Shown here piece by piece: positions 11,633 to 17,464 of a stretch of DNA of 48,496 nt; position 1 is the first letter of the stretch; every line of letters begins with the position of its first letter. The notes below the pieces were generated by a model. That model ran no database searches, was not told the DNA's origin, and saw nothing but the letters and a program-made list of their open reading frames with translations. The stretch is from the NCBI GenBank assembly GCA_013204645.1, contig JABMSE010000039.1, forward strand, positions 1 to 48,496, in the 5' to 3' direction. Made by a program: the position numbers and the translations under genes. This stretch comes from Candidatus Saganbacteria bacterium (lineage in GTDB: Bacteria > Margulisbacteria > WOR-1 > O2-12-FULL-45-9).

Positions 11633-11661
11633 ATTTAAGTCTTTAGTGTGAGTTTGTAGTT

Positions 11662-11689
11662 GTGCCTGACACCATTTTGTGTCTGACAC
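11662..11689. repeat. Direct pair of 11-mers GTGCCTGACAC / GTGTCTGACAC
   Basis: 11662-11672 and 11679-11689, one mismatch; each is also close to palindromic; reaches the coaE stop codon. Confidence 0.6.
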
Positions 11690-12273
11690 TAATTCATAAT
11701 GGCTTTTCTTAAGCTCTTTGAGCTACCATCGTTCCTGATAACCCTATCCGCCATTGCTAGATATTCCTTTTGCGGCATTTGGGAACTAATCCGTTTTTGG
11801 GCAGAAGTTTTCGACGAGCCCTTTTTTAGTAGCCGTTTTAATCTCTTTTCTTTAGATGCCATAACCACCCAAACCTCATCCACATAATCTACCAAGCCAA
11901 TCTCACTAAGCACCGCTGCATTTATCACAATCAACTTACTACTTACTACTAACAACTTACAACTTTCTATAATCGCCTCCCTCAACCTCGGATGAACGAT
12001 GCCATTCAATTGCAAGAGCTTCTTTTCATCAGAAAAAACAATCTTAGCTAATTTCTGGCGATTGATTTTGCCTCCGCGCATCAAGATCTTGGAACCAAAG
12101 GCTTTTACGATCTCTCGCCACACCGGGGTTTGGGGGTTATATAATGTATGCGCAACTTGATCGGCATCAATCACAGCTGCCCCTTGTTTTTGCAATATCT
12201 TGGCTACGCTGTCCTTACCTGAAGCAATGGGACCGGTTAAGCCGATAATTTTGTATGGTTGGTCATTCATCAT
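11689..12273 (-). CDS. coaE: Dephospho-CoA kinase
   Basis: IIGLTGPIASGKDSVAKIL P-loop; DADQVAHTLY; GKINRQKLAKIVFSDEKKLLQLNGIVHPRLR, typical of CoaE. Confidence 0.93.
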   Translation of the reverse strand: MMNDQPYKIIGLTGPIASGKDSVAKILQKQGAAVIDADQVAHTLYNPQTPVWREIVKAFGSKILMRGGKINRQKLAKIVFSDEKKLLQLNGIVHPRLREAIIESCKLLVVSSKLIVINAAVLSEIGLVDYVDEVWVVMASKEKRLKRLLKKGSSKTSAQKRISSQMPQKEYLAMADRVIRNDGSSKSLRKAIMN

Positions 12274-12513: not shown

Positions 12514-14460
12514 ATGCGATTTGCAAAACATTTAATCGCAACTTGTATTTTGTGCTTTTGTGCTCTTGTGTTCTTATGTCCTTCCCTCACCTCGGCAGCT
12601 GACCTTGATTTTCCCTATGCTGGTGTCCAAATCAAACTTCCCCCACAAGAGGACCCCTTCCCAGGCATAGGCAATTACTACAGTACCCTTTCAAAAGGCA
12701 TGGAAACTGCTCTCTGGAACCCAGCTTCCCTAGCTAAGCTTTCTCTCTCGGAAGCGTCTATTTCAACCTTAGGGCCGCTTGAAAGGTACACTTATAACCG
12801 AAGCTTTGAAATAGCTGAAACAAGCGGTGATCTTATGCTTGATGGCGGAACAACTGCTGCCGGTGAATATGGTATATTTTATCGATCACCCGCTGCTATC
12901 GGAAGTGGAATCAACACCAAAGAAGTAGAAGTAATGACCCATTCAAATTTTGCCACTGAAGGCACCGGAGTTAATTTTAACTCGGCCTTAAGAGTCAATG
13001 AATGGATCACAATTGGCTTTGCTGCAACCAGCCCGCTTGCCGCTGATATGGCCGCATCAGGGGATTTTCCTTTAACTGTCCGGTCCGATATCGATTTTCG
13101 CGGGCAATCAACCCCGGACATGGAAATAACCAATGCTGGAAAACTAAAATACACCTATGATGTAGGTCCCACAATCGTAACCTATGAAAGCACGGGAACT
13201 GTTTGGACGGGTTTTCTTTCCCAGGAGGCTACTATTCCTTCCACCACCTACGGAGAATTTAGGAATAATGTAAACATTGAAAGCCCCTACATGGGAAGCA
13301 TTGCATCAAAAATCGGCAAATTATCCCTCGGGGTTAATATGATTCCTATTTCTGCCACCGCTAATATTGATAATGACTTACAAGTAGCGGTTAATTCTGA
13401 TGCTGATGATATTATTCTTTACTTCCCAAATTTTGACCCAACCAACGAACTAGAGATCGTAAACTGGGTGAATGATCCTAACCAATACGGCACCTCAGCA
13501 GGATATTCAGAGAAACAATTCAATGTCCATGAAGGCGAAATCTTAGGGACTGCCAGATATACCGGCTATTACACGGCCAGCACCACCCGCTTCGATATTG
13601 GCTCAATGTATGACATTACAGACTGGCTTACGGTGGGGGTGGTTTTTGAAAACTTCGGAGGAGCATCCCTTAATATGAAGGGAAACGGGATATCTACTTT
13701 CATAAATTATCGAGATGTCAATACCAGTGAGGTGGACCAACTACAAAACTTAATTGACCCGGGAGGCCTGACAGAAATTGACCTCTTGGCAGACGAATGG
13801 ATAACTACTGACGAGGTAAACAGCATTAAACTTTTGCTTGAACCAGAAAAGAATTATCCTCTCCCCAAAAGGATCCGCTACGGCATAGCGCTTAAAAAAC
13901 CTTGGTTGATTGCCATTGATTTTGAGCAAAACACCAACCCGATTTCTTTTGTAGCAACGATAAATAATGTGGAAGAAACAATTACGGTTAGCAATATCAA
14001 TTTCGTGCGAATTGGCGGGGAAACCCAAATCTTTAGGCTGCCCGCTTGGTTTCGCGGAGGCACCACCCTTATGCTTAAACCAGAAATTACTGGGTTGGAT
14101 GCTGACACCCAAAACACGGTAAACAACGCCTTCCGATACGGGGCTTTGCCAATAAAACTGGATTTGGGTCTGGATATGAATTTCTGGGGGACTCTGATTG
14201 GAAACTCCCTGGGAATAAATGCACAATCTATAATCAGCGTTTTACAGGTTGATGTCACCAACATGGACTTAACTAAAATGATTTACAGCAATTTCTACGT
14301 GGCGCGGGGCCCCTGGCAGATATCCTGGCTCATTTCGGCTGATCCCTTAGCTTCGGCCGCAGCTTATGGCTCAAGGACACCACCTCCGGGTCAGAAAAAG
14401 GAGATAGAATTAAGTGATCTCAAATATGTTCAAACTTTTGGGGTAACCTATAAATTCTAA
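12514..14460 (+). CDS. Predicted outer-membrane beta-barrel protein (FadL/PorV-like appearance)
   Basis: Signal peptide HLIATCILCFCALVFLCPSLTSAA; WNPASLAKLS resembling the NPAGLA motif; alternating beta strands; C-terminal aromatic VTYKF. Confidence 0.65.
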   Translation: MRFAKHLIATCILCFCALVFLCPSLTSAADLDFPYAGVQIKLPPQEDPFPGIGNYYSTLSKGMETALWNPASLAKLSLSEASISTLGPLERYTYNRSFEIAETSGDLMLDGGTTAAGEYGIFYRSPAAIGSGINTKEVEVMTHSNFATEGTGVNFNSALRVNEWITIGFAATSPLAADMAASGDFPLTVRSDIDFRGQSTPDMEITNAGKLKYTYDVGPTIVTYESTGTVWTGFLSQEATIPSTTYGEFRNNVNIESPYMGSIASKIGKLSLGVNMIPISATANIDNDLQVAVNSDADDIILYFPNFDPTNELEIVNWVNDPNQYGTSAGYSEKQFNVHEGEILGTARYTGYYTASTTRFDIGSMYDITDWLTVGVVFENFGGASLNMKGNGISTFINYRDVNTSEVDQLQNLIDPGGLTEIDLLADEWITTDEVNSIKLLLEPEKNYPLPKRIRYGIALKKPWLIAIDFEQNTNPISFVATINNVEETITVSNINFVRIGGETQIFRLPAWFRGGTTLMLKPEITGLDADTQNTVNNAFRYGALPIKLDLGLDMNFWGTLIGNSLGINAQSIISVLQVDVTNMDLTKMIYSNFYVARGPWQISWLISADPLASAAAYGSRTPPPGQKKEIELSDLKYVQTFGVTYKF

Positions 14461-14465
14461 ATACA

Positions 14466-15320
14466 ATGACAAATGACAAATTAAAAATGCTTCCTTCGGA
14501 CCGAGCACAAGGCCTTTCCCTTCGGGCTGAGGGAAAAGTCCTTTCTCAGGACGAAGCCTCAGGACGAGGTCGCACTGAAGATAAGGACAACGCTCAGCAC
14601 AAAGTGACAAATTATGGTTGGATCATTATAATAGGAATAGTCGCTACACTAGGGATAGGAACAAGAGCCGAAGCAATAACTGCTTTTGCTACCATGGAAA
14701 CCCCAGAAATTATGCGTATTAATATTAACGGCACTAGAATATTTTCCGGAGATCCCATAACGTCGCTCCCCCAAATTGCTGTAACTGCTGCCACTACCTC
14801 TACCATGGAAACAATGCGACTAAAATTAGGTACGATAAATACGAACATAACCTTTACGCAAAGTGGAAATACTTGTTTAGCAACCTACAACGTGACCAGC
14901 GCTATTGCCGCTGGCACCTATGGTCTCACCATTGAGGCTTTCACAACCTCTGGGAAGGCAGCCACATATGAAGTCTATCCGTTATATATTAGAACGAGTA
15001 ACGACCTAACTATCCAAGGCTATCCTCTAAATTATCCAAATCCTTTTGATCCAGGGTCACAAACAACCACCATTAGCTATACACTCTCAAAATCTTCCAA
15101 CGTAAAAATCAATATTTTTGATCTAGCTGGCAACTTGCTTGTAAGCAATGGTTATTCAACTAATCAACCAGGTGGAACGGCTGGATACAATGAGGTTACC
15201 TGGGACGGCAAAGCAAGTGGCGGCAGCTATGTGGGAAATGGCATTTATATCTATCTGATTATCGCTGACGGAAAAGTAGCCCAGAATGGCACGGGCAAGA
15301 TTGTGGTGTTCAAACAATAA
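14466..15320 (+). CDS. Exported protein with C-terminal FlgD-Ig/T9SS-sorting-like domain
   Basis: Hydrophobic WIIIIGIVATLGIGTRAEA signal; C-terminal YPLNYPNPFDPGSQTTTISYTLSKSSNVKINIFDLAGNLL...VTWDGKASGGSYVGNGIYIYLIIADGK. The called start at 14466 gives an unusually long N-terminal extension. Confidence 0.75.
   Translation: MTNDKLKMLPSDRAQGLSLRAEGKVLSQDEASGRGRTEDKDNAQHKVTNYGWIIIIGIVATLGIGTRAEAITAFATMETPEIMRININGTRIFSGDPITSLPQIAVTAATTSTMETMRLKLGTINTNITFTQSGNTCLATYNVTSAIAAGTYGLTIEAFTTSGKAATYEVYPLYIRTSNDLTIQGYPLNYPNPFDPGSQTTTISYTLSKSSNVKINIFDLAGNLLVSNGYSTNQPGGTAGYNEVTWDGKASGGSYVGNGIYIYLIIADGKVAQNGTGKIVVFKQ
14474..14614. repeat. GC-rich palindromic insertion flanked by the direct repeat tgacaaatta
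   Basis: tgacaaatta at 14474-14483 and 14605-14614; interior includes tttccct-tcgggctg-agggaaa and the repeated ctcaggacgag. Confidence 0.5.
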
Positions 15321-15325
15321 ATAAT

Positions 15326-17464
15326 ATGCAAGATACAAGATACAAGACACAAGATACAAATAAATTCAAAACATCAAATTTCAAACATGCTTTTGGGATT
15401 TGGTTATTGGTTATTATTTGGTTTTTGTGTCTTGGTTATTGGTCATTGGGGCACGCAGTAGACGGCATTTCCCTTAACCCGGCCCAAACCATATTTTCTG
15501 CGCGGCAGTTGGGAATGGGTGGAGTTGGTGTTGCTTTTTCAGGTGACGCTAACGGAGTATTTACCAATCCCGCCGGACTAGCAAATGCAAGTTTTCCTCA
15601 AATAAGTGCTTCTTCGCGCAAACTGCTCATGAACGAGACCCAGTATACTTTGCTTGATTGGGCCATGCCAACTAACTGGGGAACTTTTGGCATTGGATAT
15701 ACCAGTATGAATACCGGAGGATCCCTTCCCACTAAACTTGATCCCGCAACCGGGCGCATTGTGATTGACCCAACCCGCGAAGCCACCAGCTATGATAATA
15801 ATGTTATTGCCATATCCTACTCAAGAAAAGTACGCCCAAATCTATCGCTCGGTACTAACGTAAAATTCTTCAATCAATCTCTAAGCGGAGATGTCTCTAG
15901 CCGAGCCCAAGCTACGGGAATTGATTTGTGTGCTCTGTACCAAGCAAGAAAGTGGTTAACCCTAGGAGCTAACCTGCAAAACGTTGTTGAAGGAAATCTA
16001 GCCTGGAAAGGCAGCACCAGCGATAAAATTGGCGGATTCTATAAATTGGGAGCGAAAGTTAATCTTTTGGGTGCATCCAGCGAAGCTCTTAGAACAAACT
16101 CCCAACAACTTTACGTTGGAGTAGATTACGATATGCCTCACAGCACTCTCGCTTCAAGCAACTATCATATTGGTCTTGAATATCTTCCCATTGACAAGGT
16201 AGCAGTGCGCACCGGCTACAATCAGGCTGGCTTCACCCTGGGAGTGGGGATAATAAATGAGGGTTTTCGTTTTGATTATGCTTTTGTCTCTAACCCCGAA
16301 ATCCCAGGAGACAATCCTCATTATTTTTCTCTTTCCTACATTGGAGAAAGGGTCCTTGATGTTTCCTACACCCTCAAGGAAAAAGAATCGGGCATCATAT
16401 TTATTCAACCTGAAAACCGTACCATCACCAGCGAAGAAAGCATTGTCGTCAGCGCGGAAGCACGGGCTAAAATTATCCTGGATCAAAAAAAACGCTGGAT
16501 TGTTACCGCCATCTCCGAAACCCAAGAAGTTACTGAAATCATTGAGTATGAAAATCTTAAACCGGTTTATCTTAACGGCCAGGAAGTCTATCAAAGCGGA
16601 ATAATCGACGTTTCAGCCCCACTTACCCTAGGAAGGAATGTTTTACAATTAGTTGGTTATGCCACCGTTGAGGGACTAGTTAAAAATGTCTCCCCCGAAA
16701 CATTGATGATGTCCTCTGAAGTAGTTGTCCTGCGCTTTGATCCTTTTCCCGATACCCCGATGGATTACTGGGCAATTCGACCTATTGCACTGGGCATAAC
16801 CCTAGGGGTAATAAAAGGCTATCCGGATGACACCTTTAAGCCAGACAAAGGAATTACTCGAGCAGAATTGGTAACCCTGCTGGTCAGAACGATTGGAGTC
16901 CCGACTGATCAAGAGCTTGATTCCATGTCTTTCAAAGACGTCCCAGCCAATAACTGGGCAGCAAAATACATCGACTTTGCTGTAGAAGAAGGCCTGGTAA
17001 TGGGATATCCTAATAACACATTTAAGCCTAACAAAGTCGTAACCCGAGCCGAGGGCGTGACCATCATAGCCCGTTATGCCACCTTGGCCCTAAAAGAAGT
17101 AGATGAGGTTCCCTTCCCCGATCTGGTTGCCGACTACTGGGCAAATAAATATATTGTTGCAGCCCTTGAAGCTGGCATAATAAAGTATCTGGAAGGCAAG
17201 AATTTTGAGCCCAATGCTCCCCTTACTCGTGCCGAAGCCTGCGAAGTTCTTTATTGGACGCCACAAATCCAGCGCAGAGTAAATCAATTCTGGGAAACTG
17301 GCTTTGTCTCACCCTACCAGGAAGGAACTCCTGCAGATGTACCTCCAACAACCACTATCAGCACTCCTGAAGCGATAGCAACCCCTCCTAGCACCCAAGA
17401 GGCAGTTGAAACTCCAAGCACAACTCCTGAAGCTACGGAAACCCCAACCCCGGAAGCACACTAA
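15326..17464 (+). CDS. Beta-barrel (PorV/UPF0164-like) protein with C-terminal S-layer homology domains and Thr/Pro-rich tail
   Basis: SARQLGMGGVGVAFSGDANGVFTNPAGLANASFPQIS; three SLH units: GVIKGYPDDTFKPDKGITRAELVTLL, GLVMGYPNNTFKPNKVVTRAEGVTII, GIIKYLEGKNFEPNAPLTRAEACEVL; tail TPEAIATPPSTQEAVETPSTTPEATETPTPEAH. Confidence 0.85.
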   Translation: MQDTRYKTQDTNKFKTSNFKHAFGIWLLVIIWFLCLGYWSLGHAVDGISLNPAQTIFSARQLGMGGVGVAFSGDANGVFTNPAGLANASFPQISASSRKLLMNETQYTLLDWAMPTNWGTFGIGYTSMNTGGSLPTKLDPATGRIVIDPTREATSYDNNVIAISYSRKVRPNLSLGTNVKFFNQSLSGDVSSRAQATGIDLCALYQARKWLTLGANLQNVVEGNLAWKGSTSDKIGGFYKLGAKVNLLGASSEALRTNSQQLYVGVDYDMPHSTLASSNYHIGLEYLPIDKVAVRTGYNQAGFTLGVGIINEGFRFDYAFVSNPEIPGDNPHYFSLSYIGERVLDVSYTLKEKESGIIFIQPENRTITSEESIVVSAEARAKIILDQKKRWIVTAISETQEVTEIIEYENLKPVYLNGQEVYQSGIIDVSAPLTLGRNVLQLVGYATVEGLVKNVSPETLMMSSEVVVLRFDPFPDTPMDYWAIRPIALGITLGVIKGYPDDTFKPDKGITRAELVTLLVRTIGVPTDQELDSMSFKDVPANNWAAKYIDFAVEEGLVMGYPNNTFKPNKVVTRAEGVTIIARYATLALKEVDEVPFPDLVADYWANKYIVAALEAGIIKYLEGKNFEPNAPLTRAEACEVLYWTPQIQRRVNQFWETGFVSPYQEGTPADVPPTTTISTPEAIATPPSTQEAVETPSTTPEATETPTPEAH
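15328..15452. repeat. Low-complexity (caagatacaagatacaagacac.../ttggttattggttatt...) repeat overlapping a coding start
   Basis: aagatacaagatacaagacacaagatac followed by aaattcaaaacatcaaatttcaaa and tttgggatttggttattggttattatttgg...ttggttattggtcattgggg. Confidence 0.75.

Follow-up and report, generated by a model that had tools for sequence, protein, structure and literature searches.

The gene starting at position 15326 of the window (the whole stretch of 48,496 nucleotides analyzed here, from contig JABMSE010000039.1 of a Candidatus Saganbacteria bacterium) raises the question of how a predicted export signal came to be encoded by DNA with the appearance of a repeat. Signal peptides are famously degenerate, and the origin of new ones is an open question. 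According to the original prediction, the start of this gene is translated from A/C-rich and then T/G-rich repeats, and the re-read window has the sequence and translation as quoted at 15326-15457, with the A/C part giving the polar/basic n-region and the T/G part the hydrophobic h-region (Table 1). Here it is proposed, with a probability of about 80%, that this segment belongs to a dispersed, hairpin-forming repeat family and now encodes a predicted Sec-type signal peptide, a situation read as the exaptation of a spreading repeat.

Table 1. Features of the window around the start of the gene for the SLH-domain protein
Feature	Position	Strand	Evidence
N-terminal extension of the upstream gene (14466-15320), second dispersed repeat family	14466-14620	+	24 own-genome matches
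Translated copy of the heptamer palindrome, an imperfect inverted repeat	15326-15451	+	hit of covariance model R1 (15329-15449; E 1.9e-24)
5' arm rich in A/C, with heptamers of CAAGATA type; source of the polar, basic n-region	15329-15385	+	Tandem Repeats Finder array; pairs with the T/G arm
3' arm rich in T/G, with heptamers of TTGGTTA / TTGTGTC type; source of the hydrophobic h-region	15390-15449	+	Tandem Repeats Finder arrays; complement of the A/C arm
Residues 1-44 (MQDTRYK...GYWSLGHA), predicted signal peptide with probable cleavage after GHA	15326-15457	+	translation; orthologs
Gene for a 712-aa protein with three SLH domains, called SLH/beta-barrel in the original prediction	15326-17464	+	Pfam SLH, E 3.1e-38, 3 stretches

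Tandem Repeats Finder detected a heptamer array at 15329-15359 (4.4 copies of a 7-mer, 91% match), another at 15400-15449 (7.6 copies) and a 25-mer in two copies at 15392-15440. The A/C and T/G arrays are complementary, and in the RNA fold the segment is one long hairpin of -40.2 kcal/mol, compared with -20.5 +/- 2.9 kcal/mol for shuffled sequences (z = -6.8; 0 of 200 shuffles equally stable). The "simple repeats" of the original prediction do run A/C and then T/G, but they are two arms of one inverted repeat and not two separate repeats; similarly, the repeat nature behind the term "low-complexity" holds, and the wording is better replaced by a defined palindromic heptamer element. The 7-base period, with a CAA (or TTG) that is near-invariant per unit in the alignment of copies, had been missed.

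Only the last residues of the predicted signal peptide lie outside the element. Under the architecture rule used here, residues 1-44 have the features of a Sec signal, including a net-positive n-region, the hydrophobic segment FGIWLLVIIWFLCLGYW and a small-x-small motif (GHA followed by V). The SLH protein has homologs in 38 of the 38 genomes searched, with orthologs of 41-57% identity in most of the class, and the orthologs end their own signal peptide at the matching place, before GISLNP-like residues. Export and cleavage of these proteins through the element-encoded sequence are predicted because of the protein families and the orthologs.

The element is an imperfect palindrome of ~100-150 bp, consisting of an A/C-rich arm of 7-base units, a short centre and a complementary T/G-rich arm. 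In an alignment of ten copies, CAA recurs each 7 bases in the first arm and TTG each 7 bases in the second, and the boundaries of the element are diffuse because its ends are heptamer runs. Searched at the DNA level, the own genome (1.78 Mb in 160 contigs) gave 40 matches at E <= 10, corresponding to roughly 20 separate sites, and the window element has 77% identity to distant non-homologous loci. A covariance model built on seven signal-peptide and three untranslated copies found 12 full-length sites with E from 1e-26 to about 1e-12, followed by a gap to E 0.03. Eight of the 12 are read in frame as a signal peptide and four are untranslated. The former are on contigs C27 (the SLH protein of the window), C104 (FlgH and FlgA, near each other), C60, C125 (BtuF-like), C10 (TPR), C5 (subtilase) and C117; two of the eight proteins have no Pfam hit, one of which looks, on visual comparison, similar to the N-terminal part of the SLH protein of the window. 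A ninth, partial copy on C83 forms the signal peptide of an Amidase_3/AMIN protein, and single A/C arms are found in frame inside PriA and a NadB-like protein. The element is thus a dispersed palindrome of ~100-150 bp present both in frame in genes and in intergenic DNA, as in protein-coding palindromic repeats. The derivation of the signal region from repeat DNA, as originally predicted, is borne out by these dispersed copies, untranslated ones included, and the search that had been suggested for further copies in the genome returned the ~20 sites described above, with four full-length untranslated copies among them. A comparison with Rfam at the gathering score gave 0 matches in the window and nine loci. 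Two copies on contigs C159 and C131 have a second, G/C-rich hairpin (TCCCGCTTCGCGGGAT type) nested in an arm.

Since 7 is not divisible by 3, a run of heptamers is translated into the same cyclic heptapeptide whichever frame is used (three heptamers make 21 bases); CAAGATA yields QDTRYKI, and its complement TATCTTG yields LYLVSCI. As the element is a palindrome, the A/C arm comes first on either strand. The six-frame mean hydropathy of untranslated copies is -1.28 in the 5' half and +1.46 in the 3' half, having the same sign in 46 of 46, and that of translated copies is -1.44 in the first half and +1.52 in the second. Since the untranslated copies also have a polar and a hydrophobic half, the coding property precedes translation. 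In physical terms, the 7-base period drops frame dependence, the palindrome drops strand dependence, and the A/C-then-T/G order gives polar and then hydrophobic residues. The signal-peptide copies have on average 1.41 open frames of six, versus 0.53 in the others, with a start codon at or near the element edge (ATG in 43 of 45); untranslated copies are freely interrupted by stop codons. Within soluble proteins, the heptamer tracts favour the more hydrophilic strand (22 of 30, p = 0.016). Clearly polar heptamer hairpins found by model-free searches in stretches of the own genome, G023 and G011 were A/C-first, by 15 to 0 in one search and 5 to 0 in G011.

At E <= 0.01, the covariance model matched elements in 27 of 57 genomes (own and relatives), nearly all of the same class. 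Among 100 elements from the own genome and relatives, 46 passed the automatic signal-peptide rule, a share that is biased because the sample was ranked by the score of a model built mostly on translated copies, and 45 of these 46 assignments rest on the same own architecture rule. The automatic list includes one doubtful site (L242) and one put on the wrong strand (L016, where the subtilase strand is real), and it missed true signal-peptide sites at L066, L257, L258 and the second site of L255. Downstream proteins with a Pfam match are nearly all envelope or exported proteins, including FlgI, FlgA, secretin, LolA-like, SBP_bac_1/5/8, HlyD/CusB, subtilase, SLH and YceG. The exception, L068 of a relative, is a translated copy preceding a protein whose best Pfam matches are AAA domains.

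The comparison of orthologous signal regions, which the original prediction had proposed, found no conserved signal sequence in FlgH or in the SLH protein. Most of the 30 FlgH loci encode an ordinary signal peptide, 20-25 residues long and without relation to the repeat, and long, repeat-like ones are found in the own genome, G003, G017 and G019; the G003 locus is a covariance-model match. Orthologs of the SLH protein also have mostly ordinary signals, while G028, from another family of the class, has an element of its own and G025 a different palindrome. The few element-bearing orthologs of these two proteins come from other genera and families. The FlgH residues just before the mature protein are kept (SILPVRADS versus SLPVAADS), and therefore the element took the place of the n- and h-regions, or displaced them, while the cleavage region stayed. 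The nearest neighbour of an element came from the same genome in 55 of 88 cases, versus 10.8 expected. For genes with an element in two genomes, that element is in most cases nearer to others of its own genome, as with the own FlgH element (0.82 to the own FlgA, 0.69 to the FlgH of G003). This within-genome likeness fits repeated acquisition or ongoing conversion in each genome, and not one inherited ancient insertion. As the same element is traceable in orthologous genes of many related genomes, the gain, loss and replacement of export signals become countable. For annotation, the long and odd N-termini of these proteins should be taken as real repeat DNA and not as start-site errors.

That repeats repeatedly become signal peptides is well supported, and that they prefer such sites is moderately supported. 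For the own genome, the eight of 12 copies at signal peptides give p = 0.012 if only intergenic and signal-peptide DNA are allowed as targets, a conservative test in that the signal-peptide fraction used is an over-estimate, and p = 1.7e-10 for a uniform genome. In unbiased stretches, six heptamer tracts were found at signal peptides against 2.8 expected (p = 0.06), and eight against 3.1 (p = 0.012) when the heptamer-poor genome G010 was added. When 357 kb of the relative G011 were searched for heptamer hairpins without a model, nine elements were found, none of them at a signal peptide; this search favours perfect hairpins, the palindromes of coding copies have decayed, and the window copy was itself missed by it. 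Lag tests over the first 120 bases of all predicted signal-peptide genes gave no strong general heptamer signal, and therefore most signal peptides in these genomes are ordinary. As in STRR-like heptameric simple repeats, lag-7 tracts exceed those at lags 4, 5, 10, 11 and 13 in the own genome, G013, G023 and G011, but not in G010.

An explanation by composition only, in which signal peptides are naturally T/G-rich and weakly repetitive and the likeness to a repeat is a convergence of hydrophobic codons, is very improbable. It would suit the many element-free orthologs that also have T/G-rich h-regions and short heptamer-like runs; however, it is largely refuted by the untranslated copies of the same element, and the complementarity of the two arms (z -6.8), the 77% identity to non-homologous loci and the lag-7 excess in several genomes also speak against it. 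The element could otherwise be a regulatory hairpin in the 5' untranslated region, or an intergenic element, with the true start downstream and the reading through the N-terminal stretch QDTRYKTQDTNK incidental. The next in-frame ATG is residue 64, beyond the signal peptide of a protein needing export, and the FlgH, FlgA, FlgI, secretin and binding-protein homologs would under this explanation all be left without a signal peptide. Eight genes are open in frame across the whole element with a cleavage-like motif directly after it, and the signal-peptide copies have more open frames than the others. A downstream start is thus considered unlikely, even though there is no clear Shine-Dalgarno sequence visible before the ATG at 15326, the mRNA start would form a very stable hairpin, and four of the 12 full-length own copies are untranslated.

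A further possibility is domestication, with the element kept as a ready-made export signal and its A/C-first polarity and open frames selected for that use. All clearly polar model-free heptamer hairpins are A/C-first, yet many untranslated copies have the same polarity; the frames of translated copies are poor in stops, yet stops occur freely in the untranslated ones. The same genes recur with the element in different genomes, but the unbiased enrichment is weak, and tolerated insertion at a degenerate site accounts for the same facts, so that domestication is given little credence. A wider proposal, in which class-wide heptameric palindromes are a transferable frame- and strand-independent signal-peptide module that replaces native signals, turns adjacent frames into exported proteins and is retained partly for its coding property, is possible but doubtful.

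In the preferred reading, the exaptation of a spreading repeat, any translated copy would yield polar/basic and then hydrophobic residues equivalent to the n- and h-regions of a signal peptide, and a copy at the 5' end of a gene whose product is exported would be tolerated or usable. The element would bring or abut a start codon and supply the n- and h-regions, the cleavage region of the host gene would stay in place, and selection would presumably remove copies from other coding positions. Insertion is the presumed mechanism, no empty site with a target duplication having been found; the element may have spread as mobile DNA or by gene conversion, and the element-derived signals would be expected to function in vivo. 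The element would then be a concrete and repeated natural source of signal peptides. Mobilisation by RAYT was considered and rejected, as the element lies within 1.5 kb of only one of the eight Y1_Tnp (RAYT-like) genes in the own genome, and among five Y1_Tnp loci scanned for inverted repeats the hairpins, where there were any, were of a different kind (GTGTC..GACAC or GGGGACAG type). Viral spread was also rejected, with only three viral contigs having (CAAGATA)3. As a separate observation, GTGTCTGACAC-type hairpins at 11640-11690 of the window and at L400-L405 resemble those beside the Y1 (RAYT-like) genes of this genome.

The extended signal peptide region (ESPR) of autotransporters, conserved at the protein level in type V secretion, places a long n-region before an ordinary h-region. 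The element-encoded signals also have an unusually long n-region, although here repeat DNA accounts for the length, which differs from ortholog to ortholog. Among DNA repeats, Yersinia YPAL / RU-2 and ERIC / RU-1f are small dispersed palindromes fused in frame to genes, and RU-1f fusions give predicted membrane segments (Delihas 2007, PMC2759123, PMC2229807). As a dispersed palindromic repeat in frame with genes the present element is similar; however, RU-2 and RU-1f are isolated cases in one particular frame with no heptamer structure, whereas here eight or nine genes in one genome are involved, with class-wide recurrence and a polar-then-hydrophobic reading in every frame and both strands. 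The RPE are palindromes of 100-150 bp found in intergenic DNA and in frame in conserved protein genes (Ogata et al. 2000, via PMC2229807), being in frame in many proteins, and a selfish spread has been proposed for them (PMC2229807). In that secondary account, and compared by description, RPEs are inside cytosolic proteins, while here any full palindrome within a protein forms part of the signal peptide, and soluble proteins (PriA, NadB-like) were seen to contain no more than a single A/C arm. Heptameric repeats are over-represented in bacteria, as with the G-rich heptamers of cyanobacteria and Xanthomonas (PMC4692102), and three-frame translation has been discussed for the TAACTGA heptamers of Beggiatoaceae (PMC4679880). 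These are also runs of 7-base units; however, the arrays mostly lie between genes in a single orientation, and the available portions of both papers treat them as regulatory or G4-forming and not as a source of signal peptides (PMC4692102, PMC4679880). Single cases are known (Yersinia RU-2, Rickettsia palindromes), and no description of the combination of heptamer period, palindrome and class-wide repeated use as signal peptide was found in the literature consulted.

An exact 22-mer of three CAAGATA units is present in at least 111 stretches from many phyla, with ~0.03 expected by chance in 257 billion bases, both strands and random bases assumed. The hosts include Bacteroidota, Patescibacteria, Omnitrophota, Bacillota, Chloroflexota, Pseudomonadota and an archaeon. 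In several of these stretches the 22-mer is in frame inside class I tRNA ligase, NAD-dependent DNA ligase, a PolX-like polymerase, a methylase, HypF, PriA and ATP synthase delta, and the three-unit runs in essential cytosolic enzymes (L288-L367) encode always the hydrophilic TRYKIQD peptide in the cases read; in a few stretches (L295, L322) the 22-mer provides the hydrophobic portion of a signal-like N-terminus. Other heptamers (AAGTCAA, CAAACTT, AATCCGA, CCCTTGA) are common in G011, G013 and G003, in hairpins as well as in arrays within enzymes; heptamers are especially abundant in G011, and G010 of the same family is nearly free of them. Neighbouring genes of the window also have repeats at their starts. 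In the second dispersed family (AATGACAAATGACAAATTAAAAATG), a 25-nt segment is found exactly at many sites of the own genome, and the long extension precedes a hydrophobic segment. In the gene before 14466-15320, the predicted signal-peptide DNA at 12514-12583 contains 8-base repeats of the TTTTGTGC type.
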